The notes under the pieces are model-generated. The model was not told the origin of the DNA. It worked only from the letters and a program-made list of their open reading frames with translations, and did not search any database. A stretch of DNA of 64,000 nucleotides from Arachidicoccus sp. BS20 (GTDB lineage Bacteria > Bacteroidota > Bacteroidia > Chitinophagales > Chitinophagaceae): contig NZ_CP015971.1 of NCBI RefSeq assembly GCF_001659705.1, positions 2,297,029 to 2,361,028 on the forward strand, written 5' to 3'. Made by a program: the position numbers and the translations under genes. This document shows, piece by piece, positions 4,144 to 55,239 of the stretch. Each line of letters begins with the position of its first letter. The first letter of the stretch is position 1.

Positions 4144-7100
4144 TCAGAATCCGATTTGCAGCCCTAAAGTTACCACACGCTGGTTAAGATACGCATCGCC
4201 TGCTGTATTGGATTGCACTTCCGGGTCTTGCTGATATTTTTTTGAAACATTACTCCATGTTGCAATGTTGTAAGAGCTGAAATATATTCTTGCATTATTA
4301 ATTTTAAAAGGCAATACTTTATTGGGTAACTGATAGCCTAACTCGATTGTTTTTAACCTTATGTAATATGCGTTTACCAACCAAAAGTCAGACATATACA
4401 CGGCAGGGCTATTTACCGTTGTAGGATTGGTCGTCAATCTTGGAAATTCAGCAGTAGCCGCAGTCTCAGGCGTCCATCTTTTTTCGTGGATTGGCTGAAA
4501 CTGGCTTTGGAACGGTTCTATCGCAGTGCCCGTAAGCGCTAAACTGTAATCAAACGCACCCTGAAAAAGGAAATTGATATAAAATCCTTTGTAGCTTAAA
4601 TTAATCGGAAGCCCCAATGTTGTAGTCGGTAAATTAGGATGACCGATTGCCTGCCTGTCATTCTCATCAATTACACCGTCGCCATTCAAATCTTTATATT
4701 TCAAATCGCCAGGCTGAATGGCTATTGCCGTCGATGGTTTCGGCACAGAAGCATCATCGACATCAGCTTGGGAATAGAAGCCTTCAAATACATAGCCGAA
4801 CGGCTGGTTTATCGGCTTTCCGGTTGCAGCCAACCAGGGATATCTTGGCGAAGCTTCGGCTTCATATAAAATTTTATTTTTCGCATAAGACCATACAACT
4901 CCAACGCTATAATTCATCGCGCCTATTTTATCTTTATAAGTGATAGTTCCATCGAAACCGCGATTGACTGTTCTCGCTACGTTTGTGGGCGATACGCCTA
5001 TTCCGAGTATCTCAGGAATATCGCCTCTTGTTACCAATTGGTCGTACCTGTAGTCTCTGAAATAATCTGCCGTTACGGAAATCTTATCATTAAATGCATT
5101 GAAATCAAGACCTATATCTAAACTTCTTTTCTTTTCCCACGTAACATCATTATTGCCTAAAGCACCTTCATAAATAGTTCCTCTGCCTTGCGGCGATTGA
5201 CCAAAGCTGTAACCCCCGCCTGTAACATATACCTGCTGATATAAATACTGGTCGCCCGGAGCAACATCCGAACCTACAACGCCATAAGAAGCTCTTAATT
5301 TAAACAAGCTGAACCCAGAAAGAACATTTTTCATAAAATTTTCTTTCTTTAAATTCCAACCCAAACCGATTGCAGGAAAAAAGCCATATCTTTTCTTTGC
5401 TTCAAACCTGTCCGAACCATTATAGCCGACATTAAAATCCACAAGATATTTCTGGTCATAGTCATATCCTATTTTATAGGAAAACCCTCTGAACTTTTGC
5501 GGCGCTGCTGCTATTACATAATTCTCATAATTTTCCTGGTTCCAAAGCAATAATGAATTGATATGATGGTTTCCGAACGTTGCTTTATAATTCAGATACA
5601 ACTGCATATTTACGCGCTGGTCTTTCAAATCGGTATTGGCGATAGTTCTGTATCCGATTAGTGTATATCCGCCGGAGCTTACGCCGGTGTTGAGCGTGTA
5701 CGAGCTGTCCCTCGGGTCGAAATGATAAGACGGTGGGAAAGCATAAGGTCGTGCAAGGTTCAGGGTATTCTGTTCTATACCCGCATAGGCAACTCTTCCT
5801 GTTAAAGAAAGCCCCTTAACAAGGAAATCCAATTTTTCATTAAATTGTACGAGCGAATTATAATCGGTTCTTCTTTGTCTGCTGTAACCGCCTGTTGCAA
5901 GCAATGCATTAATAGTCGGTAACTGGTCTTGCGTATCATACGCATAAGCGTAGCTTCCATTGGGATTTAAAAACGGCGCTGAATAAGGATGATACTTGGT
6001 AAAATCATAAATGTCGCTTGTTACATTCTGATTATACGGCTGGTTGATATCGCCGAAACGCGCCGTAAGGTCAAGCCTTAAGCTGAAATTGTGTGTTACC
6101 TGTATATCGAGATTTGACCTTACCGTATATCTTCTGTAAAAATAATTGGTATTCACACCGTCTTCATTCGTTGAAAAATCCCGGACCTGACCGTTCTGGC
6201 TAAAGACACCTCCGGATACGAAATACTTAACAGAAGCCGTTCCGCCCGAAATATCCAGGTTAGAATTTGACTGTGTGGAATAAGGTTTCATAATAGCCTT
6301 GTACCAATCAATATCCGGATGTCCGTAGGGGTCATCTCCGTTTTGAAAAGCATCAAAATCGCTTTGATTAAATGGCGCTACAAGACCATCGTTTGTGTAT
6401 GCTTCGTTAACCAGTTTCGCAGTATTATAAGCATTTAAAAACTTAGGCGTTCTTACCGGCGTCTGCACGCCTGTTTCCTGAATGAGATTAAAACTCGGAT
6501 GCCCCAATTTACCTCTGCGCGTAGTTACAATCAATACGCCGTTCGCACCTTTAATACCGTAAATCGCAGTTGTAGATGCATCTTTCAGAATGGATATGCT
6601 CTCAATTTCATTTACATTTATTTGCGCCAGCTGTTCATAGGTATATTCAATACCGTCCACAATAATTAACGGTTGGTTACCGGCAGAATTTAAAGAACTT
6701 ACACCTCTGATAAAATAATCGGACGCATCTTTTCCCGGCTGTCCCGAACGTTGCTGGGCAAAGAAACCGGGCAACCTGCCTGCTAACGTATTTTGTACGC
6801 TGGATGTTGGAATTCTCCTGATTTCTTCTGCATTAATGGAAGCTACCGAACCCGTATTGGTAACTCTTTTGGTTGTACCAAAACCTACAACAATCACGTC
6901 GTTTAAAGAACTGTTGGTTTTATCCAAAACGATATTCAGCAACGATGTTCCTTTGGTTATTACTTGTTTCGTCTCGTAGCCGACAAAACTCACACTTAAA
7001 GTATCGCTGTTTACCGTAATTGTAAAGAACCCGTTCTTGTCGGTATTGACTCCATTCTTCGGATTAGCTTTTTCAATGACAGTTACATCCCTCAAAGGTC

Positions 7101-7194
7101 CGGCGGAATCCCGCACAAATCCTCTGACAGTCTGCTGCGCCAAACCGGCAAAACAACTACCTAAAAAAAGAGTAAAAAATATTAGTTTCTTCAT
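4144..7194 (-). CDS. SusC/RagA-type TonB-dependent glycan transporter
   Basis: This 1016-residue outer-membrane TonB-dependent transporter of the SusC family imports oligosaccharides with a SusD partner. It shows a signal peptide (ending GLAQ), a carboxypeptidase-regulatory-like domain (about residues 22-95), a plug domain with LNDVIVVGFGTTKR near 97 and IRGVSSLNSAGNQPLIIVDG near 165, and a long beta-barrel ending in VTLGLQIGF with a terminal aromatic residue. There is no N-terminal STN domain, so it is not expected to signal to an anti-sigma factor. It lies 47 bp downstream of the second susD. That order (susD before susC) is the reverse of the usual one, so its partner may be either SusD of the locus. 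Confidence 0.93.
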   Translation of the reverse strand: MKKLIFFTLFLGSCFAGLAQQTVRGFVRDSAGPLRDVTVIEKANPKNGVNTDKNGFFTITVNSDTLSVSFVGYETKQVITKGTSLLNIVLDKTNSSLNDVIVVGFGTTKRVTNTGSVASINAEEIRRIPTSSVQNTLAGRLPGFFAQQRSGQPGKDASDYFIRGVSSLNSAGNQPLIIVDGIEYTYEQLAQINVNEIESISILKDASTTAIYGIKGANGVLIVTTRRGKLGHPSFNLIQETGVQTPVRTPKFLNAYNTAKLVNEAYTNDGLVAPFNQSDFDAFQNGDDPYGHPDIDWYKAIMKPYSTQSNSNLDISGGTASVKYFVSGGVFSQNGQVRDFSTNEDGVNTNYFYRRYTVRSNLDIQVTHNFSLRLDLTARFGDINQPYNQNVTSDIYDFTKYHPYSAPFLNPNGSYAYAYDTQDQLPTINALLATGGYSRQRRTDYNSLVQFNEKLDFLVKGLSLTGRVAYAGIEQNTLNLARPYAFPPSYHFDPRDSSYTLNTGVSSGGYTLIGYRTIANTDLKDQRVNMQLYLNYKATFGNHHINSLLLWNQENYENYVIAAAPQKFRGFSYKIGYDYDQKYLVDFNVGYNGSDRFEAKKRYGFFPAIGLGWNLKKENFMKNVLSGFSLFKLRASYGVVGSDVAPGDQYLYQQVYVTGGGYSFGQSPQGRGTIYEGALGNNDVTWEKKRSLDIGLDFNAFNDKISVTADYFRDYRYDQLVTRGDIPEILGIGVSPTNVARTVNRGFDGTITYKDKIGAMNYSVGVVWSYAKNKILYEAEASPRYPWLAATGKPINQPFGYVFEGFYSQADVDDASVPKPSTAIAIQPGDLKYKDLNGDGVIDENDRQAIGHPNLPTTTLGLPINLSYKGFYINFLFQGAFDYSLALTGTAIEPFQSQFQPIHEKRWTPETAATAEFPRLTTNPTTVNSPAVYMSDFWLVNAYYIRLKTIELGYQLPNKVLPFKINNARIYFSSYNIATWSNVSKKYQQDPEVQSNTAGDAYLNQRVVTLGLQIGF

Positions 7195-9015: not shown

Positions 9016-12000
9016 TTATAATTTTATATTGATGCCTGTATTAAACACTCTTTGCAGCGGATAATTTGTCAATGAAATTTCCGGATCAACTAAATTATAC
9101 TGCGCATAAGTGTACAGATTGAGTGCATTGACAAATATTTTGATGCCGCCTATTCCGCCTAAATGTTTAATCCATTTATAAGGCAGATTGTAAGCGAGGC
9201 TTATATTTTTTATACGGAAATAATTATCCTTGTGTAAAAACAAAGCACTGGATGTGTATAGCGGAGCATAATTATATCCATTGCCACCGGCAGTTAATCT
9301 CGGGTAAATTGCAGTTGTTGCTGTTTCGGGAGTCCAGCGCGTTTCTGTCTGTTCATACGCTTGCCCGTAACCATTGTTTTGTGATTGGAAGCCGGCGTCA
9401 ATCGGTAAATTGTCTGCATAGATTTCGTTGTTCAAAATACCTTGCAACAAGGTGCTGAATTCAATTCCTTTATAAGAAAAGCCGAATGTCAGTCCCCAGA
9501 AAATCTTTGGCTTAGTTGTACCAATAGGCGCAATATCAAAAGCATCGATAACGCCGTCATTGTTCAAATCTTTGTATTTTACATCTCCCGGTACAAGCGT
9601 ATAACCTGCAATAGTTGCCGTATTACTTGCTTCGGTTGCCGACTGGATAAATCCGTCTGTCATTAACCCAAACCTTTCGCCGACAGGTAACCCTGTATGT
9701 ACGTTCCATGCATATTTTTCATACTGCTCATCCATATACACAACCTTCGATTGCTGTATAGAGGCATTGCCTGTAACAAAATAATTGAAATCTTTAGCAG
9801 CATTCTGATAGGTCAGCGAAAATTCGTGACCTGTATATAAATCAACACCGATGTTTTCCGCAGGATAATTAGCACCTATCAAAGCAATGCTTTTGCCTCT
9901 CGTTTGCATTACATCATAATATCTTTCGTGATAATAATCATAAGTGAATTGGAGATGTTTATCAAACAAAGAAATGTCTGTGCCGATGTCTAATTTCTTT
10001 GCCTTTTCCCAGGTAGCATTCACATTGGGAAGTGTTGCATTTTCCTGGCTTCCCGTGGGCGCAGGATAGGAGCTTCCGATTTGATAAGACGGAACATATT
10101 GAGAAAAGTGCGCCAGCCAAATATAATATCCGTAATCATCTACATTGGCGTTTCCGGTTTTACCATAAGTCGCTCTGATTTTAAATTTGTCAATCCACTT
10201 GATATTATTCCGAACAAAATTTTCTTTTGCAATATCCCATCCAAGTCCACCTGCGTAGAACAAGCCGTACCGATGACCACTTTCGTATCTGTCATACCCG
10301 CCATAATCTGCAGCTGCTTCTGCAAAATATTTTTCAGCATAATTGTAATATCCCTTAAAGGCATAGTTAGTTTGAACAGTCGGCAAATCGTAATTGAGTA
10401 ATGTTTGTCTTTGGTCGTACATTAATAATGCACCGAAAGCGTTATCTCCAATGTGCGTATCATAACCGGTTTGCGCTCTCGCATACCAATATCTTGCCCA
10501 CGAAGTAGTGGTATAAGTGTTGTTCTGGTTTACCGTGCTGCCATATCTTTGATAAGTAGTATCGCCGTCTTTAACCGTCATAGCATATACAGGAACCTGC
10601 TTGCTGCGATTAAGATAACTTGCAGACTGCACAGAGACATTGCCATTGGCTTTGAACCACCATCCTTTAATCCAGCGGTCAAGCCTGTAATTCAGGTCGA
10701 GATTAACAAGAATATCCCGCTCCTGTTCGCTGAGATAACCGGAACCTGTAGTTTGTGCTAAGAGATTAGTTGAATAATTTGTCGTGCCTCCGAATGAACC
10801 ATCGGGATTATAAACGGGATAGGCGTTGTTCGGCGTTGTGAGTAAGGCGCTTAAAATACTTGATGCTCCCGCACCGGGTTGGTTGTGATTTTGAAGCCGA
10901 CCGATGATATTTAATCCTAAGTCAAAGTCCTTATTGATTTTGAAAAATATTTTTGAATCAATGGTGTATCTCTTTAAGTTCAGATTGGTATTGTAACTGT
11001 TGTCCGGCGATGTTTTAAAAAATCCATCCTGATTAAGATAACCAAGTGAAACCAGATACCGGGCTGTATTAGTACCTCCTGTAACGTTGAGATTATAACG
11101 GTTCATTATCGCATTCTTATCTATAATCGTTTTGTACCAATCCACGTCAGGATGCCCGTAGGGGTCTGAACCATCGCGGTATGCAGTAAAATCGTCCGCC
11201 GTATAAGCGGCATTTTTGCCATCGTTCAGCAAAGCTTCGTTTAATAAATAAGCATATTTATACGCGGGCAAAGGATTGGGTAATCCGGGAGAATTTTGAA
11301 TACCGGTTTCCGCAGAAAAAGTCAAATGGGGCTTGCCGATTTTGGGTTGTAACGTAGTTACTACCAATGCGCCTCTTGAACTGTTTTGTCCTAATAATAT
11401 ATTCGACAATGCATCTTTCAAAATGGAGACCGATTGAATTTCTTCCGGGTCGAGCGAATACATTTCTCTCTGTACGCCGTCAATAACCACTATCGGTGAT
11501 TGTCCTGCGCTGCCGGCATGACCCCTCAACTGAATATTAAACTGATTGTTATCGGTTGGTCCTGCACCACTATTATTGTTAGGTATATTTCCGACAAAAA
11601 TATCTTGTGTCGTTTGAGCACCAAGCGGCGGCAAATAAAATCCCTGTTGCTGAATTACGCTCAACCCCGAAAGCCTTCCCGGCAAAGCATAAGTATATTG
11701 CGGAGCCGGCGTATTGCTTATTTCATTTCCATAAACTGTAGAGGTTGCACCGAGAAAACCGGATGCATTCTCATCGCCATACAGCACTTTTAGTTTCCCG
11801 CTCATCAGCGAATCGAGGCTGTTATCATAAACGATATTGTTGCGGATTTGATATTCGGATAAATAAGACTGATGCATTCTAAAGACAATATTCTTTTCGC
11901 TACCAATATGAATAACAGCTTTATCAAATCCTGCGTGAATAGCATACACTTTTTGATAACTGCCAGCCGGCAAATCAAATTTTCCCTGAACATCCGTTAC

Positions 12001-12204
12001 AGATAACAGATCTCCATTTTTATTCACTACGTTTACTTTGCTTAACGGCTTGCCCCAATCATCCACTATAATTCCACCGAGAACAGAAGATGTATCATTA
12101 TTATTCTCAAGATTACTTGAATCCACTTGAGCTGTTACACAAACCGAAGTTGATAAGAACAGGATGGTGAATAATACATATATTTTCAAATAATGTTTGC
12201 TCAT
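9016..12204 (-). CDS. SusC/RagA-type TonB-dependent transporter, divergent plug
   Basis: This SusC-family outer-membrane transporter has 1062 residues from the preferred ATG at 12204. The longer reading frame from 12237 overlaps the upstream stop by 10 bp and adds 11 residues before MSKHYLKIY, which begins a good signal peptide. It carries a carboxypeptidase-regulatory-like domain (about 40-110), then a divergent plug: the usual LNEVVVVGYG-type motif is replaced by an unusual stretch around YQIRNNIVYDN and a long GxLGATSTVYGNEISN region. The barrel ends TGINIKL. There is no STN domain. It lies directly downstream of a DUF4961-type gene and 4 bp before susD. Divergence of the plug suggests a cargo or partner different from the second SusC. 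Confidence 0.9.
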   Translation of the reverse strand: MSKHYLKIYVLFTILFLSTSVCVTAQVDSSNLENNNDTSSVLGGIIVDDWGKPLSKVNVVNKNGDLLSVTDVQGKFDLPAGSYQKVYAIHAGFDKAVIHIGSEKNIVFRMHQSYLSEYQIRNNIVYDNSLDSLMSGKLKVLYGDENASGFLGATSTVYGNEISNTPAPQYTYALPGRLSGLSVIQQQGFYLPPLGAQTTQDIFVGNIPNNNSGAGPTDNNQFNIQLRGHAGSAGQSPIVVIDGVQREMYSLDPEEIQSVSILKDALSNILLGQNSSRGALVVTTLQPKIGKPHLTFSAETGIQNSPGLPNPLPAYKYAYLLNEALLNDGKNAAYTADDFTAYRDGSDPYGHPDVDWYKTIIDKNAIMNRYNLNVTGGTNTARYLVSLGYLNQDGFFKTSPDNSYNTNLNLKRYTIDSKIFFKINKDFDLGLNIIGRLQNHNQPGAGASSILSALLTTPNNAYPVYNPDGSFGGTTNYSTNLLAQTTGSGYLSEQERDILVNLDLNYRLDRWIKGWWFKANGNVSVQSASYLNRSKQVPVYAMTVKDGDTTYQRYGSTVNQNNTYTTTSWARYWYARAQTGYDTHIGDNAFGALLMYDQRQTLLNYDLPTVQTNYAFKGYYNYAEKYFAEAAADYGGYDRYESGHRYGLFYAGGLGWDIAKENFVRNNIKWIDKFKIRATYGKTGNANVDDYGYYIWLAHFSQYVPSYQIGSSYPAPTGSQENATLPNVNATWEKAKKLDIGTDISLFDKHLQFTYDYYHERYYDVMQTRGKSIALIGANYPAENIGVDLYTGHEFSLTYQNAAKDFNYFVTGNASIQQSKVVYMDEQYEKYAWNVHTGLPVGERFGLMTDGFIQSATEASNTATIAGYTLVPGDVKYKDLNNDGVIDAFDIAPIGTTKPKIFWGLTFGFSYKGIEFSTLLQGILNNEIYADNLPIDAGFQSQNNGYGQAYEQTETRWTPETATTAIYPRLTAGGNGYNYAPLYTSSALFLHKDNYFRIKNISLAYNLPYKWIKHLGGIGGIKIFVNALNLYTYAQYNLVDPEISLTNYPLQRVFNTGINIKL

Positions 12205-12227
12205 AAATATCGTTGAGTTGATGTTTA

Positions 12228-13220
12228 TTATTGACATTTAAAAGTATAAGTGAAAGGCGTAGAATCATCGCCCGTACTGCCGACTTTGACATTACCGGAT
12301 GCATCTGTAAAATAATACTGAAGGCTTGCCAATTGCTTATCGGCAGACAGATTAAAAAGCCCCCTGGGCCATATATCAATACGCCACTTCTTTATTCCAT
12401 CAGCAACTAACTTGGTTGTACTGTCCTGGCGACATACTTCAAGCGTATCGCCATCTGTAGTAATGCCTTTTGCGCATAAGAAAATATTGGATTCATTCGC
12501 CAAAGCATTGTCTATAATGCCACCATCAAAGCTCAGGGTAACGATGTCGTTATCAAGTGAATTCAGCGGGTCTACCGTTGAAAGTTGAGGATTGCAAAAA
12601 TCAATTAAGTCGCCTGTACCGAAGACCCTGAAACATCCGGGAAAAGCTGCATTATAATATTGCGGGTCAGAGAGTCCGTCAACGCTTTCGGCGACAACAT
12701 AGCCGAGTTTAAACGAGATATTATCCTGGCTTGTCTTGATTTTAATATTTACTGTTACACTAACATTTACATTTCCACCTACGTTATAAGCATTGTTCGA
12801 ATAAAAAGCGACCCATTCCCAACCGGGCAATAAATTGCCCCCATGACCTATTTTGTTGCTGATAAGCGTTGGCCAATCCAAACCGTTGCCTTGCGGCGCA
12901 GCTGTTCCGGCAGGAATAACCGACATTTTCTGTTCCCCGTCGGTAATACTACTGGTAAAACTAATTGATGCGTTACTGGCTACATTCCATACCTTCGGCA
13001 CTAATACAGCTACCATTAATTTTGAATTATCTTCCTCTGCATTTGTGGAGATTGTTACGTGCAACGTAGATTGCAGCGTTTCTCCGCCGTTAACGCTGTC
13101 AGGCTGGTCAATGCTGTCAATAGTAATACTGCACGCGACAACAACCAGCGCTATTACTACGCCAACTGCTATAAGTTGCCACCGGATTTTTCTCTTAATA
13201 TAATTGAGGCTTTTGCGCAT
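12228..13220 (-). CDS. DUF4961-like lipoprotein, PUL accessory
   Basis: This 330-residue membrane-anchored or lipoprotein product has a long basic N-terminus (RKSLNYIKRKIRWQ) followed by a hydrophobic stretch, IAVGVVIALVVVAC, with a candidate lipobox cysteine near residue 30. The rest is beta-rich with immunoglobulin-like strands and no catalytic motif. It resembles, from memory, the DUF4961 family found beside susCD genes in Bacteroidota, often with a DUF5004 partner, which is also present here. It lies 8 bp after the DUF5004-like gene and its end touches the susC frame, implying translational coupling. The probable role is as a surface glycan-binding protein analogous to SusE/F. This is inference; no binding site is identifiable. 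Confidence 0.6.
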   Translation of the reverse strand: MRKSLNYIKRKIRWQLIAVGVVIALVVVACSITIDSIDQPDSVNGGETLQSTLHVTISTNAEEDNSKLMVAVLVPKVWNVASNASISFTSSITDGEQKMSVIPAGTAAPQGNGLDWPTLISNKIGHGGNLLPGWEWVAFYSNNAYNVGGNVNVSVTVNIKIKTSQDNISFKLGYVVAESVDGLSDPQYYNAAFPGCFRVFGTGDLIDFCNPQLSTVDPLNSLDNDIVTLSFDGGIIDNALANESNIFLCAKGITTDGDTLEVCRQDSTTKLVADGIKKWRIDIWPRGLFNLSADKQLASLQYYFTDASGNVKVGSTGDDSTPFTYTFKCQ

Positions 13221-47266: not shown

Positions 47267-48637
47267 TTACGGGTTTTGTTGCATGCCGGGATTGAATTGC
47301 AATACCTGCACCGGTATTTGTAAAGTATATTTTGTACTATGCGGCGGCAATGTAGCGATAACATTTTCTTGCGCGTCGTATCGATACACCGTATCCATTC
47401 TACCCTCTTTATCAAGCCTGCGCATATCAAACCATCGCAATCCGCTAAATGCCAATTCATGTTTTCTTTCAACCAAAACATTTTCCAATACGCTGTCTTT
47501 ATTATCCGATTGATAGGGTTCATAACTGCTTGCCGAGAATCGGTCTCTACGTATATCGTCCAATTGTTGCAAAGCGGTAGATAAATCATTGGAACGCGCT
47601 GCCGCTTCGGCTATTATTAATTTCATTTCTTGTACGGATGTACCTGTGTTTACATATTGCAAAGAAGGTGTTCTACCGGCAGGATAGTATAATGTAGCGC
47701 CTCTTATCGCATAGGTATAAGCATCGGTGCTGTAATAAAGCTCACTGACACGCAAATCATTTGTAGCAAAAGACCGCATAAAATCCAGCGCAGCAGTATT
47801 ATAACCAATGACCATTCTTCCATAAATAACGTCTGGCTGAATGCTGATGTTAGCCGTAGTGGGCGGTGCTCCGTTAAAATCAAGCATGGTTGCCGAGCTT
47901 TTTTCTAAAGCCAACTCTGCATTCTTTCGCGCATCGGTGTAATTACCGGCATAAAAATAAATTCTTGCCAAAACACTATACGCAGCTGCAGTAGACCCGC
48001 GAAAACGATTGTTACTGTTATCAACCGGTAAATCGGGAATGGCTGCGTTTAAATCGGAAATTATTTGAGTATAAATTTCTTGTATTGTACTTCGTGCCGG
48101 AGTTTTTTGACTTACATCGTTTGATGTAACAAATGGAACACCCAGGTCTTTATCAGCGGTAGATGAGTCGTACTCATTTCCGTATTCATTTACGAGGTAA
48201 AAATATTCAAACGCACGCCCTAAGAGCGCTTCTGCTTTGAGGCTTCTTTTTTGTTCATCAGTAGCATTTGTTGCTTTGTCTATCCCCAATAATACCGTAT
48301 TGTATTTATTTATATTGGCATAATGTTGCCCCCATAAGGGCGGAGAGATACTTAAATCGGTTGAGAATTGAGGCGCCCATGTAAACATAAGTTCACCGAC
48401 CGCCGACGGAGGAACAGTAATGGTGGGATAATCAGTATAATCTGAAAAAATATCCAAATAAGATCCGAGAGTGCCAATACCATAATCCAGTGAGACATCA
48501 TTCAGCCACAAATCATAATCATTAGCGGTTTTCAGTAAGGTATATCCTTTGGGCTGTACATTAAGATATTTGTCGCATCCGGAAAGTAATACACAACAAA
48601 TAACCAAAGCGTTTATAATATATTTAGAATATTTCAT
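47267..48637 (-). CDS. SusD/RagB-family lipoprotein (second SusCD locus)
   Basis: This 456-residue SusD homologue is shorter than the two in the first locus (589 and 581). It has lipobox LLSGC (cysteine about 21), then CDKYLNVQPKGYTLLKTANDYDLWLND, a typical SusD start. Family blocks are KAEALLGRAFEYFYLVNEYGNEYD (about 131-154), AAAYSVLARIYFYAGNYTDA (about 213), KLIIAEAAARSND and VLVERKHELAFSGLRWFDMRRL (about 395-416). It follows susC by 12 bp and is the cognate partner. It ends QQNP, consistent with the family. Confidence 0.92.
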   Translation of the reverse strand: MKYSKYIINALVICCVLLSGCDKYLNVQPKGYTLLKTANDYDLWLNDVSLDYGIGTLGSYLDIFSDYTDYPTITVPPSAVGELMFTWAPQFSTDLSISPPLWGQHYANINKYNTVLLGIDKATNATDEQKRSLKAEALLGRAFEYFYLVNEYGNEYDSSTADKDLGVPFVTSNDVSQKTPARSTIQEIYTQIISDLNAAIPDLPVDNSNNRFRGSTAAAYSVLARIYFYAGNYTDARKNAELALEKSSATMLDFNGAPPTTANISIQPDVIYGRMVIGYNTAALDFMRSFATNDLRVSELYYSTDAYTYAIRGATLYYPAGRTPSLQYVNTGTSVQEMKLIIAEAAARSNDLSTALQQLDDIRRDRFSASSYEPYQSDNKDSVLENVLVERKHELAFSGLRWFDMRRLDKEGRMDTVYRYDAQENVIATLPPHSTKYTLQIPVQVLQFNPGMQQNP

Positions 48638-48649
48638 TGTTATTTGAAT

Positions 48650-51600
48650 TTAAAAATTGGTAAATATCCCGAGGGTATAGGTAGGTGTTACATACGATTT
48701 TTGATACCCGCCTGTTGCCGCACTATAATTATATTTGTTCAGCCCGACTGTCCATACATTAGAGGCTTGCAACTTTATTTCAAAATGCGAGAATCCTATT
48801 TTCTTTATAAACTTGTTCTTATCCATGCTGTAAGAAACAACTATATCTCCCAGCGTTATATAATCCCCGTTTACCAGATATTTGTCTGCATAGTTGTACA
48901 CCCCGTTTGCATAATAATTGCTATAAGCACTCAATGCCATTACATCTGTTTTTGTTTCGTCGCCGGGTTGTTTCCAGTAATCGCCGGCTCCTTTCAGTGG
49001 TCTTGTTGCCGCAGGATTCGGACGTGGCACAAATACTTTGAACCCGCCGTAATAATTGAGCATGCAATAAATATAAAAGCTGCCTATATCCCAGCGATTG
49101 CTTATGCCCGCATTGATGGTAGGAATGGATGACCCCATGTCTCGGACAATATTTGATGTATCGTTACTGAATGTATAATAAGTCGGAGAACCCGTTGTAT
49201 TATCTTCTGTATGATATATTGTTCCTTTTGTATTTTTTACGGTCGGGTATCCTAAACTATCCAAGCCTGCATAACGGTAAGCAAAAAGTGCTCCGACAGG
49301 CGCTCCTTGCACAAAGCCCAGATTATTGATTTCCATAGGAGAATACTCCTTTCTGTTAAGACCCGGAATTAAATAATCCCGATATACTTTCTGTACTTTA
49401 CTGGTATTGCGCGCTAAAATAAATCCTGTGTTCCAGTTAAATTTTTCATTGCTAATCCAGTCGGCATGTAAGCTTATTTCTATTCCTTTATTGTTAATGT
49501 CTGCACTATTTATTATCGAAGGGCTGGTGCCGATGGTTGGGTCAATCTGCGCACTACTCATAGCATCAGTAGTTTTTTTATTGTAAAAATCTACACTTCC
49601 GTAAATGTGTTTAAACAAAGCATAGTCCAGGCCTATATTGAAATTATTAGTTTGCTCCCAACGCAAACTCCTGTTGGCATTAGATTTCAATACTAAGGAA
49701 GAAGTATATGGAGATGTATAAATATTTGTTTGAGATTCTGCAATTACCTCAGGCAGCGATGATTTTGCCACATTCCCGTTGAAGCCATCGGCTATGCGCA
49801 GCTTCAGCATTTTTATCCATGAAACATTTTCCATAAATTTTTCTTTATTAATGTTCCATGCTGCACCAACCGACCACAAAGGTTTGTATTTATATTTAGG
49901 ATCTGTGCCAAAAAGATTGGACTGGTCTATACGCACACTTCCTGTAACGGAATAAGTATTTCTAAATGAATAAACAATATTGGTATAGCCCGATAAATAC
50001 CTGTCTTTTGAATAGGACTGGTCGAAAAAATCGGAATAATTGTATGAACCAAATGAGGAACCGAAAAACGCACCTGTTATATTTCCACTAAAAAGGCCAC
50101 CGTAATCAACAGGCTGCTGTAACAATGTTTGATCATCGTAACCGAAATAGGAAGCTATGTTTCCCTCATCTATTACCTGTCTTACCTCCGTTCCCAATAT
50201 TGCATTAAAAGAATGTTGAGAACCGATAACCTTATTATAATTCAATTGGGCCCTGAGTGTATAACTTGAAAGATTGTCGTGTTGTTGTTTAAGAAAACCT
50301 CCTTCCGGAATATTGAATGTAAGTTTTCCCGTATTGTCTTGAGTAACTGCACTATTAATATATTGTCTCGCCTCAGATGAATTTCCGGAAGCATAATGTC
50401 TCATATCTGTAACGGATCTTTCATATATACCACCGAAAGACAAATCAAAACCGCTGCCAATAATATAATCAAAGTTGGCAGTAACGCTATTGCTGATAGT
50501 GTGTGTTCTATCGGTTACTTCGTTAATTTCACTTAATGGATAATAACGCGCGTCTTCCAATCCTAAAGACATTATGTAATTATTATAAAACGGATTCGCA
50601 TTTGATCCCTGAGAAACAGACAATGGATTTCCGTTTACATCTTTTAAATGTTCATAAGGATAAAGAGAAGTGATATCAGGTACCGGAGCACCATTGATAT
50701 ATGATTCCTGATAATTGGTTGTCAGTTCCAACGAAAGTTTTTTGGAGAACTTTAAGGTTGTTCGTCCGGTCAGCAAAAGCTTGTAATCATTGTTCTTAAT
50801 TTGTTCAGCTCTGTTGCCTGTATAGTTTGCAGTAAAATAATAAAGCGCATTAGGATTTCCGCCGGAAACATCTACATTATAAGTTTGCGTTACGGCTGTA
50901 CGCAGGAAATATTTTCCATAATCTTTGGCGTTGTTATATTCTTCAAGTGCTGCATACGACTGTTGGGCCTGATAAGGTGTAATTACATTTGCCATCTGCT
51001 GCGCCAAAATATAATACACAGGAGAAAAAGAAGAACTACGCGTTTTCGTTGAAAGTTGCCCCCATGTGTCAGCATTAACTACGTAATTATTTTTCTGATA
51101 GTTTGTAACAATAGCTGAAGCATCATCTGCCCAACGGTATCGCGTATAATTTTCTTTAGGCGTAATCCCTACCGTAGCACGAAACGAAATCAAAGGTTTT
51201 CCAACCTTCGCTTGTTTTCTTTCTATCACAATCACACCATTTGAAGCCCGCACTCCGTATATGGCTGCGGCTGCGGCATCTTTTAATACGGTAACGGATT
51301 TGATTTCGTTAGGATCAATCATGTCCATCGTAAGTTCCGTAGGATAGCCATCCACCACAATCAATGGTTGCGAATTTGCAGAGATAGTAGAAATGCCGCG
51401 AATATTGAAAAGACTGTGGGAAGATTGATTGCCATTCGCGTCCTGAAAATTAAATTGCACATTAGGGTTAATCATTAACCCCGGTATTTTATTGACCAAG
51501 CCGTCTATAAAACTCGTACTGATTCTCGATTCATAGTCTTTTGTGGTTATTTGCGAAACGGCACCCGTACTTTGTTCCGGCTTAATTCTTTGATAACCTG

Positions 51601-52294
51601 TATTTATCGAACCTATTGACAGTGATTCTAATTCATGAACCTGTGCTTCTAATACAACATTGACTTCAGAATCATTTCCTATTTCAATTATTTTTTGCTT
51701 ATAGCCTATATAAGAAAATAATAGTTTTTCGCCTTTTTGCGCAGCAATTTCAAAATCTCCATTTTCATTTGACACTGTGTATATGACAGATTCAAACTCA
51801 CCCTTCCTGTCAATAACAATACTTACACCTTGCAGTGGTTTTCCGGCAGAATCGGTTATATGACCGTGAACAGAAACCTGATATGTTTTTTGAATTGCAA
51901 CTGCATCTTTTCGAATCTCAGTATGCTCATCTTTAAGTTGTACAACAATATTTTTGTTGACAATTTTATACTGTAACGGTTGGTTGGCAAAGCATTTGTC
52001 CAGCGCCTTTTTTAAGGGAACTTCTTTCAGATTTAAGGTTACCGGAGTTGCCTTATTGAATAAGGCATAATTATAAAAAAATGCATACCCGCTTTGGGCC
52101 TCTATTTTTCTGAAAACATCGGTCAGAGGAGCTTTTTTTACAGATAAAGTGATTGTCTGTGACAATCCTTTAGCGCTTACCTGCAAGCAACCGATAATCA
52201 ATATAGTTGTAATAATTTTCATAATACATATCGGGATTTTTTTTAGCAGTAACCGTCGCCGCAAGGCAGGGAGTTTTGTTGCATTTAATTGCAT
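48650..52294 (-). CDS. SusC/RagA-type TonB-dependent transporter with STN signalling domain
   Basis: This 1214-residue outer-membrane transporter starts MQLNATKLPALRRR; a second start at 52222 (MKIITTILIIGCLQVSAKG) gives a normal signal peptide. Residues about 48-118 are an STN (secretin/TonB N-terminal) domain (ITLSVKKAPLTDVFRKIEAQSGYAFFY, TLNLKEVPLKKALDKCF), which contacts the FecR anti-sigma factor. A carboxypeptidase-like domain follows (VSVHGHITDSAGKPLQGVSIV), then the plug (FNIRGISTISANSQPLIVVDG) and a 22-strand type barrel. Together with the fecR and sigma genes upstream and susD downstream this is a complete trans-envelope signalling and uptake unit. Confidence 0.94.
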   Translation of the reverse strand: MQLNATKLPALRRRLLLKKIPICIMKIITTILIIGCLQVSAKGLSQTITLSVKKAPLTDVFRKIEAQSGYAFFYNYALFNKATPVTLNLKEVPLKKALDKCFANQPLQYKIVNKNIVVQLKDEHTEIRKDAVAIQKTYQVSVHGHITDSAGKPLQGVSIVIDRKGEFESVIYTVSNENGDFEIAAQKGEKLLFSYIGYKQKIIEIGNDSEVNVVLEAQVHELESLSIGSINTGYQRIKPEQSTGAVSQITTKDYESRISTSFIDGLVNKIPGLMINPNVQFNFQDANGNQSSHSLFNIRGISTISANSQPLIVVDGYPTELTMDMIDPNEIKSVTVLKDAAAAAIYGVRASNGVIVIERKQAKVGKPLISFRATVGITPKENYTRYRWADDASAIVTNYQKNNYVVNADTWGQLSTKTRSSSFSPVYYILAQQMANVITPYQAQQSYAALEEYNNAKDYGKYFLRTAVTQTYNVDVSGGNPNALYYFTANYTGNRAEQIKNNDYKLLLTGRTTLKFSKKLSLELTTNYQESYINGAPVPDITSLYPYEHLKDVNGNPLSVSQGSNANPFYNNYIMSLGLEDARYYPLSEINEVTDRTHTISNSVTANFDYIIGSGFDLSFGGIYERSVTDMRHYASGNSSEARQYINSAVTQDNTGKLTFNIPEGGFLKQQHDNLSSYTLRAQLNYNKVIGSQHSFNAILGTEVRQVIDEGNIASYFGYDDQTLLQQPVDYGGLFSGNITGAFFGSSFGSYNYSDFFDQSYSKDRYLSGYTNIVYSFRNTYSVTGSVRIDQSNLFGTDPKYKYKPLWSVGAAWNINKEKFMENVSWIKMLKLRIADGFNGNVAKSSLPEVIAESQTNIYTSPYTSSLVLKSNANRSLRWEQTNNFNIGLDYALFKHIYGSVDFYNKKTTDAMSSAQIDPTIGTSPSIINSADINNKGIEISLHADWISNEKFNWNTGFILARNTSKVQKVYRDYLIPGLNRKEYSPMEINNLGFVQGAPVGALFAYRYAGLDSLGYPTVKNTKGTIYHTEDNTTGSPTYYTFSNDTSNIVRDMGSSIPTINAGISNRWDIGSFYIYCMLNYYGGFKVFVPRPNPAATRPLKGAGDYWKQPGDETKTDVMALSAYSNYYANGVYNYADKYLVNGDYITLGDIVVSYSMDKNKFIKKIGFSHFEIKLQASNVWTVGLNKYNYSAATGGYQKSYVTPTYTLGIFTNF

Positions 52295-52301
52295 AGTTTT
52301 G
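52294..52301 (+). promoter_or_regulatory. Plus-strand -7 box TAGTTTTG over the susC start (antisense promoter candidate)
   Basis: The octamer TAGTTTTG exactly fits the Bacteroidota -7 consensus TAnnTTTG on the strand opposite to susC. A TTTG at 52275-52278 lies upstream but with a 15-nt spacer, shorter than the usual 19-21, so the -33 element is doubtful. Transcription would begin near 52308 and run toward fecR. An intrinsic terminator on the same strand at 52368-52401 supports it. Confidence 0.4.
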
Positions 52302-52356
52302 CATTGTTTGTGTGATAAATAAAAAGCATTCTAACCGTTTGTATTTTTAAGTCATT

Positions 52357-52364
52357 CAAACATA
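52357..52364 (-). promoter_or_regulatory. Minus-strand -7 box TATGTTTG of the susC operon
   Basis: On the minus strand these eight bases read TATGTTTG, an exact match to TAnnTTTG, 56-63 bases upstream of the longest susC start. No TTTG -33 element is found at the right distance; that position is occupied by the hairpin at 52369-52394. An ECF-sigma-driven promoter may not need it. It faces the plus-strand -7 box at 52294-52301, giving convergent promoters about 60 bp apart. Confidence 0.4.
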
Positions 52365-52367
52365 TTT

Positions 52368-52401
52368 GCCGCTCTGCCTCTCACCGCAGGGCGGTTTTGT
52401 T
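52368..52401 (+). terminator. Plus-strand intrinsic terminator between susC and fecR
   Basis: CCGCTCTGC (52369-52377) pairs with GCAGGGCGG (52386-52394), nine base pairs with one G-T wobble around an 8-nt loop, followed by TTTTGTT. The T-run is only on the plus strand. On the minus strand the hairpin is followed by CAAATATG, so it would not terminate the fecR transcript. Because no plus-strand protein gene precedes it, it implies a non-coding plus-strand transcript. Confidence 0.6.
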
Positions 52402-52422
52402 ATAAATAACTTTTTAGTATTT

Positions 52423-53577
52423 CTATTTCATAATAATCAGATTTTTATCTTCCATACGATAGCGAATATTGCTGTAAGACAATATTTTCAAAACTTCGGA
52501 TAAGTTACAATCCCGGGTAATTTTTCCGCCGAAATGCATATCGGGGACATTTCCTTCATATTCAACATTCACGTCATACCACCTGCTGATTTGGCGCATA
52601 ATGCCTTGCAGGTTTTCTCCGTCTTCAAAATCAAAGTAGCCGTTCTTCCAGGCTACGGAAGATTCTATATCAGTGTCGGTCGTAACTTTAACAATGCCGA
52701 TATTGTTTATTTGCCCCTGCTGCCCGGGAACTAATATTGTGCTTGCTTTATTCGTATTTATTCTCACTTTTCCTTCGAGCAGGGACACTTTCATATTTGG
52801 TTCATCTGAATATGCATTGATATTAAAATGTGTTCCCACATCTTCAACAATACTATTTCCCGTTTTCACACGAAACGGCAATTTGTCGTTATGGATAACT
52901 TCAAAATACGCTTCGCCCGTTATTTCCACGACTCTTTCTTTCCCGGCAAATGCAACCGGGTAACGTATAGACGATGCTGCATTCAGCCAAACTTTTGAAC
53001 CGTCCGGTAGTATCAATTTATACTGCCCGCCTCTCGGCGTGGATAAAATATTATATCCCACAGAAGCAAGATTTCCATCTTTATTATTACGCTGATAAGT
53101 CAATAAACCGCTATCAGTCTTTACAATGTTACATCCAATTTGATTAACTACCAGTCCCTTCCGGACACTATCCAACATTACCTTACTCCCGTCAGCTAAA
53201 GTCAATATTGCTTTGTTGCCACCGGGCGCTATGTCATGTTCTGCTACCGACGCGGCTATTGCTTTTTCATTTTTTCCGGCTTGGTGCATAACCGCTTGGC
53301 GAATACCAAACATTATGATAAACAATGCAGCAATTGATATTGCAACTTTATACCAATTGATTTTAAAAATTTTAGTTTTACTACCCAGATTTAATTCCCG
53401 GTCTAACTTATTTTTAATATTTATTTTAATCAGCTCTGCGGTAGCTTCATCAATATTCCATTCGGTTTTATCCAATACATTTTGATACCACGATTCTATG
53501 GTTTCTTTTTCTGCGTCATCACAAATACCCATACGGTACTTGTATAACATCAATCTTATCTCATCTATTTTTAACAT
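52423..53577 (-). CDS. FecR-family anti-sigma factor
   Basis: This 384-residue inner-membrane anti-sigma factor has a cytoplasmic N-terminus (about 1-72) that binds the sigma factor and a single membrane segment (about 75-93, WYKVAISIAALFIIMFGI). The periplasmic FecR domain shows YNILSTPRGGQYKLILPDGS, VWLNAASSIRYPVAF and VEITGEAYFEV (about 170-230). A DUF4974-type STN-like C-terminal domain follows (DFEDGENLQGIMRQISRWYDVNVEY, about 308-332). It is encoded 69 bp after the sigma gene and 128 bp before susC, the canonical order. It should release the sigma factor when SusC reports ligand through its STN domain. Confidence 0.93.
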   Translation of the reverse strand: MLKIDEIRLMLYKYRMGICDDAEKETIESWYQNVLDKTEWNIDEATAELIKINIKNKLDRELNLGSKTKIFKINWYKVAISIAALFIIMFGIRQAVMHQAGKNEKAIAASVAEHDIAPGGNKAILTLADGSKVMLDSVRKGLVVNQIGCNIVKTDSGLLTYQRNNKDGNLASVGYNILSTPRGGQYKLILPDGSKVWLNAASSIRYPVAFAGKERVVEITGEAYFEVIHNDKLPFRVKTGNSIVEDVGTHFNINAYSDEPNMKVSLLEGKVRINTNKASTILVPGQQGQINNIGIVKVTTDTDIESSVAWKNGYFDFEDGENLQGIMRQISRWYDVNVEYEGNVPDMHFGGKITRDCNLSEVLKILSYSNIRYRMEDKNLIIMK

Positions 53578-53646: not shown

Positions 53647-54246
53647 TTAAAATACTATATCATAAACATAAAAAACGATTAAAATCAGAGGTATTTTGTC
53701 ATTCAAATGTTCTTTAATTATCTTTAAAGCATTATAAACTTGCTTTTTTACCGTTCCTTCAGAAATATTGAGTTTTTCTGCAATTTGTCGATGGGTCAGA
53801 TTGTTCTTTCTGCTTAAATTAAATATTTCCCTCATCTTCTTCGGCAAAGAGTTTATTGCTTTTTCAATGGCAAATTCCATTTTTGTTAAGTCGATATTTG
53901 ATTCAACATTCGTAATCATGGAGCTTTGATAATACTCCGACATTGACGTTATATCAGTATATTTTTCTATATTTTTTTCAATAATCCGTAAGCTGATATA
54001 ACGGGCAACCATGTATAAATATCCGGCTAAAGTATTTTTTATTACGATTGAATTTCTTTTTTGCCATAAAGTGCTGAAAACTTCCTGAACAACATCTTCT
54101 GCGTCACTTTCCGATTTAAGTATTTTCATTGCATTGCCGTAAATAGAAGCCCAATGCCGGTTGTAAATTTCATTAAATGCCGTTTCATCATTTTTTGCAA
54201 TGAACGACAACAGCTCCATATCATTGTAAGATTTATAATCCGGCAT
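53647..54246 (-). CDS. ECF-type RNA polymerase sigma factor
   Basis: This 199-residue ECF sigma factor is partnered with the downstream FecR. Region 2 spans about 22-92 (FNEIYNRHWASIYGNAMKIL, DAEDVVQEVFSTLW, LAGYLYMVARYISLRII). Region 4 spans about 130-182 (LPKKMREIFNLSRKNNLTHRQIAEKLNISEGTVKKQVYNALKII). A short C-terminal extension (IPLILIVFYVYDIVF) is hydrophobic and unusual for a soluble sigma factor. It is probably autoregulated and drives the susC operon. A 210-bp gap upstream contains its promoter and an imperfect cluster of inverted repeats. Confidence 0.92.
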   Translation of the reverse strand: MPDYKSYNDMELLSFIAKNDETAFNEIYNRHWASIYGNAMKILKSESDAEDVVQEVFSTLWQKRNSIVIKNTLAGYLYMVARYISLRIIEKNIEKYTDITSMSEYYQSSMITNVESNIDLTKMEFAIEKAINSLPKKMREIFNLSRKNNLTHRQIAEKLNISEGTVKKQVYNALKIIKEHLNDKIPLILIVFYVYDIVF

Positions 54247-54456: not shown

Positions 54457-55239
54457 TCAGTTGGAAAGTTCGGTCGGGGTCAGTCCGAATTGCCTTTTAA
54501 ATGCATAGGAAAAATGTGATAACGTTTCAAAGCCCAATTCCAAATAAATATCTGATGGTTTTTGTTTTTTCTTTTCAAGAAGAAAATGGGCTTCCTGCAA
54601 GCGTTTCCGCACAAGCCAACGATTTGGCGTTTCATTAAAGGTTTCTTTGAAATCACGTTTAAATGCAGATAAACTTCGTCCTGTCAAATATGCGAAACGT
54701 GCAACGCTCACATTGAATTTAAAGTTGCGGTTCATAAATTCTTCAAGGTTTATTTTTTCGGGAATGCCGTAATCAAAAAACAAACCTGCGAGTTCGGGCT
54801 GCGCTTGTAATAAAATCAGCAACAATTCTTCACGCTTTACGTCAGCAAAGGGTTTTGCGATTTTGGCGTGGTCGTAATAAGGTAATAACGATTGAATAAA
54901 ATTCGGCAGTAAATCATTTTTCTTTATAGGAATCAATGTTTCGTTTGATTTGAATATTGTCGCCTGTATGTTATACTTTTTCTGAAATTGTTTAAGAAAG
55001 ATTTCATCGAAAAATACAAATACTTTTTCAAGTTCGTTATTCACTTTTTCTTTGTTGTAACGCGCCAAACGATTTTTTCGTGCAAGTCCACAATCGCCTG
55101 TTTTGAATGTATAGGTTTTACTTCCGTCATACACATTCATTATTCCTTTTATCACATAAGCGAAAGTATGCTCCGCAATAAATTGTTCGGGCGAAATTTC
55201 TTTGCCCACATAGTGCATTTGTGTTGTAGAATCTTTCAT
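54457..55239 (-). CDS. AraC-family transcriptional regulator
   Basis: This 260-residue regulator has an N-terminal cupin-like sensor (about 12-130, containing FAYVIKGIMNVYDGSKTYTFKTGDCGLARKN) and a C-terminal pair of helix-turn-helix motifs (about 160-258). The latter include FNVSVARFAYLTGRSLSAFKRDF and IYLELGFETLSHFSYAFKRQFGLTPTEL, the usual AraC signature. It starts 1 bp after the stop of the upstream short-chain dehydrogenase, so it is coupled with it and probably regulates that operon or its promoter. The effector is unknown. Confidence 0.9.
   Translation of the reverse strand: MKDSTTQMHYVGKEISPEQFIAEHTFAYVIKGIMNVYDGSKTYTFKTGDCGLARKNRLARYNKEKVNNELEKVFVFFDEIFLKQFQKKYNIQATIFKSNETLIPIKKNDLLPNFIQSLLPYYDHAKIAKPFADVKREELLLILLQAQPELAGLFFDYGIPEKINLEEFMNRNFKFNVSVARFAYLTGRSLSAFKRDFKETFNETPNRWLVRKRLQEAHFLLEKKKQKPSDIYLELGFETLSHFSYAFKRQFGLTPTELSN

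Follow-up and report, generated by a model that had tools for sequence, protein, structure and literature searches.

The window analysed here, a stretch of 64,000 nucleotides from Arachidicoccus sp. BS20, lies on the 3.49-Mb chromosome. On its minus strand, genes for an ECF-type sigma factor, a FecR anti-sigma factor, a SusC-type TonB-dependent transducer, its partner SusD, an F5/8-C protein with a BT_3987-like domain and a thioredoxin-like protein follow one another in this order (Table 1). The sigma gene is immediately preceded, on the same strand, by an AraC-type regulator gene (ExsA_N and HTH_18; 54457-55239, minus strand). The gap between the end of fecR at 52423 and the start of susC at 52294 is 128 bp long and carries a candidate antisense RNA gene on the plus strand, across which the ORF list of the window holds no long plus-strand ORF. 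The window holds two more TonB-receptor genes (4144-7194 and 9016-12237, minus strand, the latter with a weak Plug score), which lie near susD and a GH106 rhamnosidase gene and have no fecR neighbour, and neither the box nor the antisense terminator described below was found at these two genes.

Table 1 Positions of the genes and of the predicted antisense elements in the window
Feature	Position	Strand	Basis or remark
Sigma factor, ECF-type (Sigma70_r2, Sigma70_r4_2)	53647..54246	-	domain matches and ORF
fecR, anti-sigma factor (FecR, FecR_C)	52423..53577	-	domain matches and ORF
susC, TonB-dependent transducer (STN, CarboxypepD_reg, Plug, barrel)	48650..52294	-	domain matches and ORF
susD, partner in the susC-susD pair	47267..48637	-	domain matches
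Putative -33 element TTTG	52275-52278	+	19 nt 5' of the box, first base to first base
Antisense -7 box TAGTTTTG, exact TAnnTTTG, overlapping the susC ATG	52294-52301	+	sequence and conservation
Antisense promoter, whole	52275..52301	+	fused form CATAGTTTTG, in which CAT reads as the susC ATG on the minus strand
Predicted antisense RNA, ~94-98 nt	52305..52402	+	starts at an estimated 52305-52308 and ends in the U-run
P1 helix, 5' strand TGTTTGTGTGAT	52305..52316	+	pairs with 52351-52362
P1b inner hairpin	52320..52349	+	folds; divergent among paralogues
P1 helix, 3' strand	52351..52362	+	minus-strand reading overlaps the TATGTTTG box at 52357-52364
P2 intrinsic terminator	hairpin 52368-52395, U-run to 52403	+	kept on the antisense strand only

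The sequence-only reading of this DNA had pointed to an exact plus-strand TAnnTTTG over the susC start, a GC-rich hairpin with a T-run about 70 nt downstream and no plus-strand protein gene, and all three were recovered here. The motif itself is common in the window (49 sites, below the shuffle counts), and thus a lone box by itself proves nothing; it is the box at a start codon taken together with an antisense terminator that comparative genomics renders significant. For example, a susC ATG with the perfect fused form CATAnnTTTG was found in 43 of 110 fecR-linked family loci against 1 of 385 control ATGs (later in-frame ATGs), and 1 of the 36 window ORFs of at least 200 aa, namely susC at 52294, carries it. 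In all 37 relatives examined, the fused ATG shared the reading frame of a long susC-like ORF, so it is very probably the true susC start. SusC proteins with a fused start have an extra 15-60 residues, often basic, ahead of the usual MKLT-type signal peptide, and the window SusC has a 24-codon extension (MQLNATK..., 52294-52222, minus strand) ahead of MKIITT; a possible reason for this pre-signal extension is that the antisense promoter fixes the position of the start codon. The same reading had also given susC a minus-strand box of its own. The TATGTTTG is indeed present at 52357-52364, but a sense-strand box in the corresponding interval was found in only 1 of 76 antisense-terminator loci and it is therefore not a conserved susC promoter.

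The terminator hairpin, GCCGCTCTGC-CTCTCACC-GCAGGGCGGT, comprises 10 pairs (-17.9 to -18.4 kcal/mol), is followed by TTTGTTAT, lies about 70 nt 3' of the -7 box and ranks first in the terminator list for 45-64 kb of the window. For its conservation, fecR-susC gaps were chosen solely by the FecR C-terminal domain (PF16344), which gave 128 gaps, 110 of them from 11 Chitinophagaceae genomes. At a cut-off of -12 kcal/mol or better, a terminator was found on the antisense strand in 62 of the 110 gaps, against 5 of 110 on the sense strand and 13 of 660 dinucleotide shuffles (2%); the strand difference has a Fisher p of about 3e-18. A strand-blind repeat finder detected a strong inverted repeat in 73 gaps, with a T-run after the repeat on the antisense side in 55 and on the sense side in none, and the G.U-type pairs in these strand-neutral repeats fitted the antisense strand in 72 cases and the sense strand in 20. 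An exact TAnnTTTG was located upstream in 46 of 76 antisense-terminator loci, mostly 60-79 nt ahead of the hairpin. The check that the sequence-only reading had proposed, conservation in related fecR-susC gaps, thus came out in its favor for the fused box and the terminator alike. About 40% of the family gaps have no clear antisense terminator, which counts against our main reading, and the RNA is therefore not essential for ECF/FecR control. Three fecR-susC gaps of the genome that holds the window (L020, L021 and L016) have antisense hairpins with T-runs and lack the canonical box; these are possibly variants with a different promoter or spacing. The terminator loops of L017, L019, L025, L014, L023 and others have a common UUCCAG / GNNCAA-like motif that is absent in the window copy and is a possible protein contact or stable loop.

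As the box overlaps the susC ATG, the RNA must begin about 11-14 nt upstream of the ATG. The earlier expectation that it would cover both leader and promoter is thus retained for the leader, which is all that is covered; the start codon is not. The window RNA has a predicted fold of -31.6 kcal/mol, and the stretch 52308-52402 (plus strand) has a fold z of -4.2 against shuffles. Across the family, the predicted RNAs (sequence-based lengths with a median of 91.5 and a range of 65-134 nt) begin with a long P1 stem at the 5' end, which usually encloses the inner hairpin P1b, and close with the terminator P2, and in most copies P1 sets in 0-3 nt past the box, about where the transcription start is expected. 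MAFFT and RNAalifold on alignment A1 recovered only part of P2 because the register of P1 varies, and the structure was therefore tested by comparing cognate with non-cognate duplexes and by a covariance model. In 56 fecR-anchored copies, cognate P1 strands paired at -12.6 kcal/mol against -8.0 kcal/mol for non-cognate ones, with 38 copies in the best tenth; the small gap in the 80 named-set loci (-14.6 against -13.6) is expected, since their 5' P1 strand is in large part dictated by the query pattern that selected them. G.U pairs in strand-neutral P1 helices fitted the antisense strand 66 times against 12, and 131 times against 9 in the named set. In alignment A2, which was fitted to the structure and of which the cognate-duplex and G.U tests are independent, double changes occurred at 18 of 18 model pairs, and covariation was 0.530 against 0.194 when shuffled and at most 0.159 in slid controls. 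The compensatory changes in P1 and the antisense fit of the G.U pairs indicate that the antisense RNA is the molecule under selection. Within a genome, paralogous RNA bodies share runs with a pairwise median of only 6-6.5 nt, so extensive pairing would be possible solely with the own leader, and P1b is the probable specificity region. YUNR U-turn or kissing-loop motifs were not enriched in the loops (15 of 48 against 32% expected), which also counts against the main reading.

The covariance model, R1, was used to follow the RNA beyond the anchored gaps. In the window, its sole confident match is 52280-52403 (plus strand; 69.3 bits, E 1.5e-12), a sequence that is itself part of the seed alignment. 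Across 61 relatives, at least 23 genomes had matches, all within the own family, and the top genome had at least 47 copies. The relatives G007, G033 and G021 carry at least 26-47 matches each, and G007 also has 118 FecR_C matches; relatives of this kind may run tens of parallel antisense-controlled uptake operons per cell. Of 40 R1 matches that were retrieved, almost all of them in genomes not used for training, 38 lay opposite a fused ATG that opens a long ORF, and 38 had, just upstream, the end of a long ORF on the same strand. R1 also matched several further families in phylum and class samples, and a DNA pattern run on named genomes matched Chitinophaga, Niastella, Terrimonas, Lacibacter, Pedobacter, Mucilaginibacter, Sphingobacterium, Arcticibacter and Dyadobacter; a long ORF together with an antisense terminator was found at 69 of the 80 named pattern matches. 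Three pattern matches lacking a susC-like gene (Clostridium, an archaeal MAG and another MAG) had neither a long ORF nor an antisense terminator. An STN domain was present in 49 of 50 SusC proteins with the RNA and in 14 of 20 without it (p 0.0017). BLAST with the 261-bp region matched other genera in the box and start segment only and would thus have missed the structure. Rfam 15 gave no family at gathering score and no credible weak match, and our literature search for RNAs of this kind in Chitinophaga or Sphingobacteria returned no paper.

The promoter-terminator anatomy, its conservation, the covariation, the strand and the link to fecR-linked transducer susC genes are computationally established, and conservation, covariation and strand asymmetry all support the DonS-type antisense layout that had been suggested for this gap. 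We are highly confident, judging from these sequence signals, that a selected antisense RNA gene exists here, and 52294-52402 (plus strand) is most likely a DonS-type cis-antisense RNA gene that holds susC-susD low, its expression, repression and pairing being what we infer. Repression of susC by the RNA is, taken separately, likely as well, and that leader pairing would be its main step is an evenly balanced proposition. In the proposed mechanism, housekeeping-sigma RNA polymerase would start at the -7 box overlapping the susC start codon, and transcription toward fecR would yield an RNA of about 94-98 nt with the 5' stem P1/P1b and the Rho-independent terminator P2. This RNA, whose predicted complementarity to the susC leader is perfect and sets in at about -11/-14 upstream, would pair with its own leader beside the start codon and keep susC-susD expression low; the leader duplex could block ribosome loading or be exposed to RNases, and convergent transcription may add to the repression. 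On a signal through the STN-bearing SusC, FecR would release the ECF sigma factor, and ECF-driven sense transcription would outrun the antisense RNA.

Several other explanations can be considered. It is possible, though rather unlikely, that the act of antisense transcription matters and not the RNA, the convergent promoter hindering the start or the progress of sense transcription, with its own reach limited by the terminator. The promoters face one another within about 100 bp, the fecR end is so close to the RNA gene in many relatives that sense polymerase must cross it, and the divergent RNA bodies among paralogues are compatible with interference too; however, interference does not require a conserved P1, and the compensatory changes and G.U pairs in P1 preserve the fold of the antisense strand, not that of the sense strand. 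An action mainly in trans on other mRNAs, which the 5' segment GUUUGGGUUAA common to many copies might suggest, is very improbable, as this segment is buried in P1, the remainder is divergent and the copies sit opposite fecR-linked susC starts. Hardly any weight is left for the reading, already disfavoured, in which a sense-strand feature (the start codon, N-terminal codons and ribosome-binding region of susC) or a DNA operator accounts for the conserved DNA and the antisense signals are by-products. The sense start is very probably real, given the in-frame fused ATG in 37 of 37 loci, and at the DNA level P1 forms an inverted repeat. Against this reading, the T-runs are on the antisense side only (55:0), the G.U pairs of both P1 and the repeats are asymmetric, the sense fold is weaker, the perfect fused context belongs to this susC alone among the 36 window ORFs, and a one-strand G.U preference is not expected from an operator. 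Finally, that the terminator just ahead of fecR merely halts stray antisense transcription out of susC into fecR and the sigma gene, the RNA being waste, is most improbable in view of the dedicated promoter at fixed spacing, the covarying P1 and the fecR-unlinked TonB-receptor genes of the window that have neither box nor terminator, even though antisense noise is frequent in AT-rich genomes and many antisense RNAs have been argued to be noise (PMC7366714).

For a cis-antisense RNA that would brake susC, the present results have several implications. First, the covariation speaks for selection on the RNA fold itself, against the view of many antisense RNAs as noise, and the parts open to mutation, namely the box, P1, P1b and the terminator, can now be named. 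Second, the device is not limited to gut Bacteroides, as it is widespread in Chitinophagaceae and present in Sphingobacteriaceae, and the covariance model enables its annotation and testing in culturable Pedobacter, Mucilaginibacter and Chitinophaga. By analogy with DonS of Bacteroides, relatives of the RNA at the equal position in many Bacteroidota probably each brake their own uptake gene. With middling confidence, we also propose that in many Bacteroidota each ECF/FecR-linked transducer susC has its start codon fused to an RNA-repressor promoter, which would make a phylum-wide family of mutually orthogonal, structured antisense RNAs, tens per genome and one for each uptake operon, sharing a fold (P1 and terminator) and not a sequence.

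DonS is said to belong to a PUL with ECF sigma and anti-sigma genes upstream as controllers, and here too the ECF sigma gene, fecR, susC and susD lie in this order. It was reportedly described by Cao et al. in J Bacteriol in 2016 (cited in PMC7366714, PMC10994844 and PMC11697453). DonS is assigned to a family of antisense RNAs, 78-128 nt long, by which the expression of susC-type genes is lowered (PMC7366714), it is reported as a repressor of its PUL (PMC7366714, PMC11697453), and 15 DonS-type loci are given for B. fragilis (cited in PMC9723704). Ten more antisense RNAs of this layout were detected in B. thetaiotaomicron, five of them by Northern blot (PMC7366714, PMC11697453). A set of 32 PUL antisense RNAs in that species shows mixed correlations, and some correlate positively with their own PUL, which we count against repression (PMC10994844). 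The mechanism of repression by DonS-type RNAs at polysaccharide-use loci is described as unknown (PMC11697453). In fecR-susC gaps of a Bacteroides-like genus, an assignment made solely through a PDB SusC chain of 79% identity, antisense terminators were found in 15 of 25 and sense ones in 2 of 25, together with several fused boxes, R1 matches down to E 1.8e-7 and P1 strands pairing better with cognate than with non-cognate partners (-10.7 against -6.7). We take that PDB chain to be B. thetaiotaomicron BT1763. This common architecture identifies the window RNA as a putative DonS-type PUL antisense RNA.

Compared with known systems, the present RNA shares with GibS, FopS and other trans-acting Bacteroides sRNAs the phylum and the tie to sugar-use genes, but those sRNAs are untied to a cognate susC start, and in this comparison no Rfam model matches the present RNA. 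CopA and RNAI of plasmids are short, structured, terminator-ended antisense RNAs that are fully complementary to their target leader. The window RNA resembles them in being short, structured, terminator-ended and complementary to its target leader, whereas the present RNAs are chromosomal, have dozens of divergent copies per genome and are not enriched in YUNR loops. It differs from DonS in its Chitinophagaceae host and in being known from sequence alone, and it is set beside DonS by published description. Like DonS, it is encoded opposite the 5' end of a susC homologue, its predicted length of about 94-98 nt falls inside the reported 78-128 nt, and it has its own housekeeping-type TAnnTTTG promoter and intrinsic terminator, seen in sequence and conservation; as a predicted gene, it now extends the DonS-type RNA to Chitinophagaceae and Sphingobacteriaceae.
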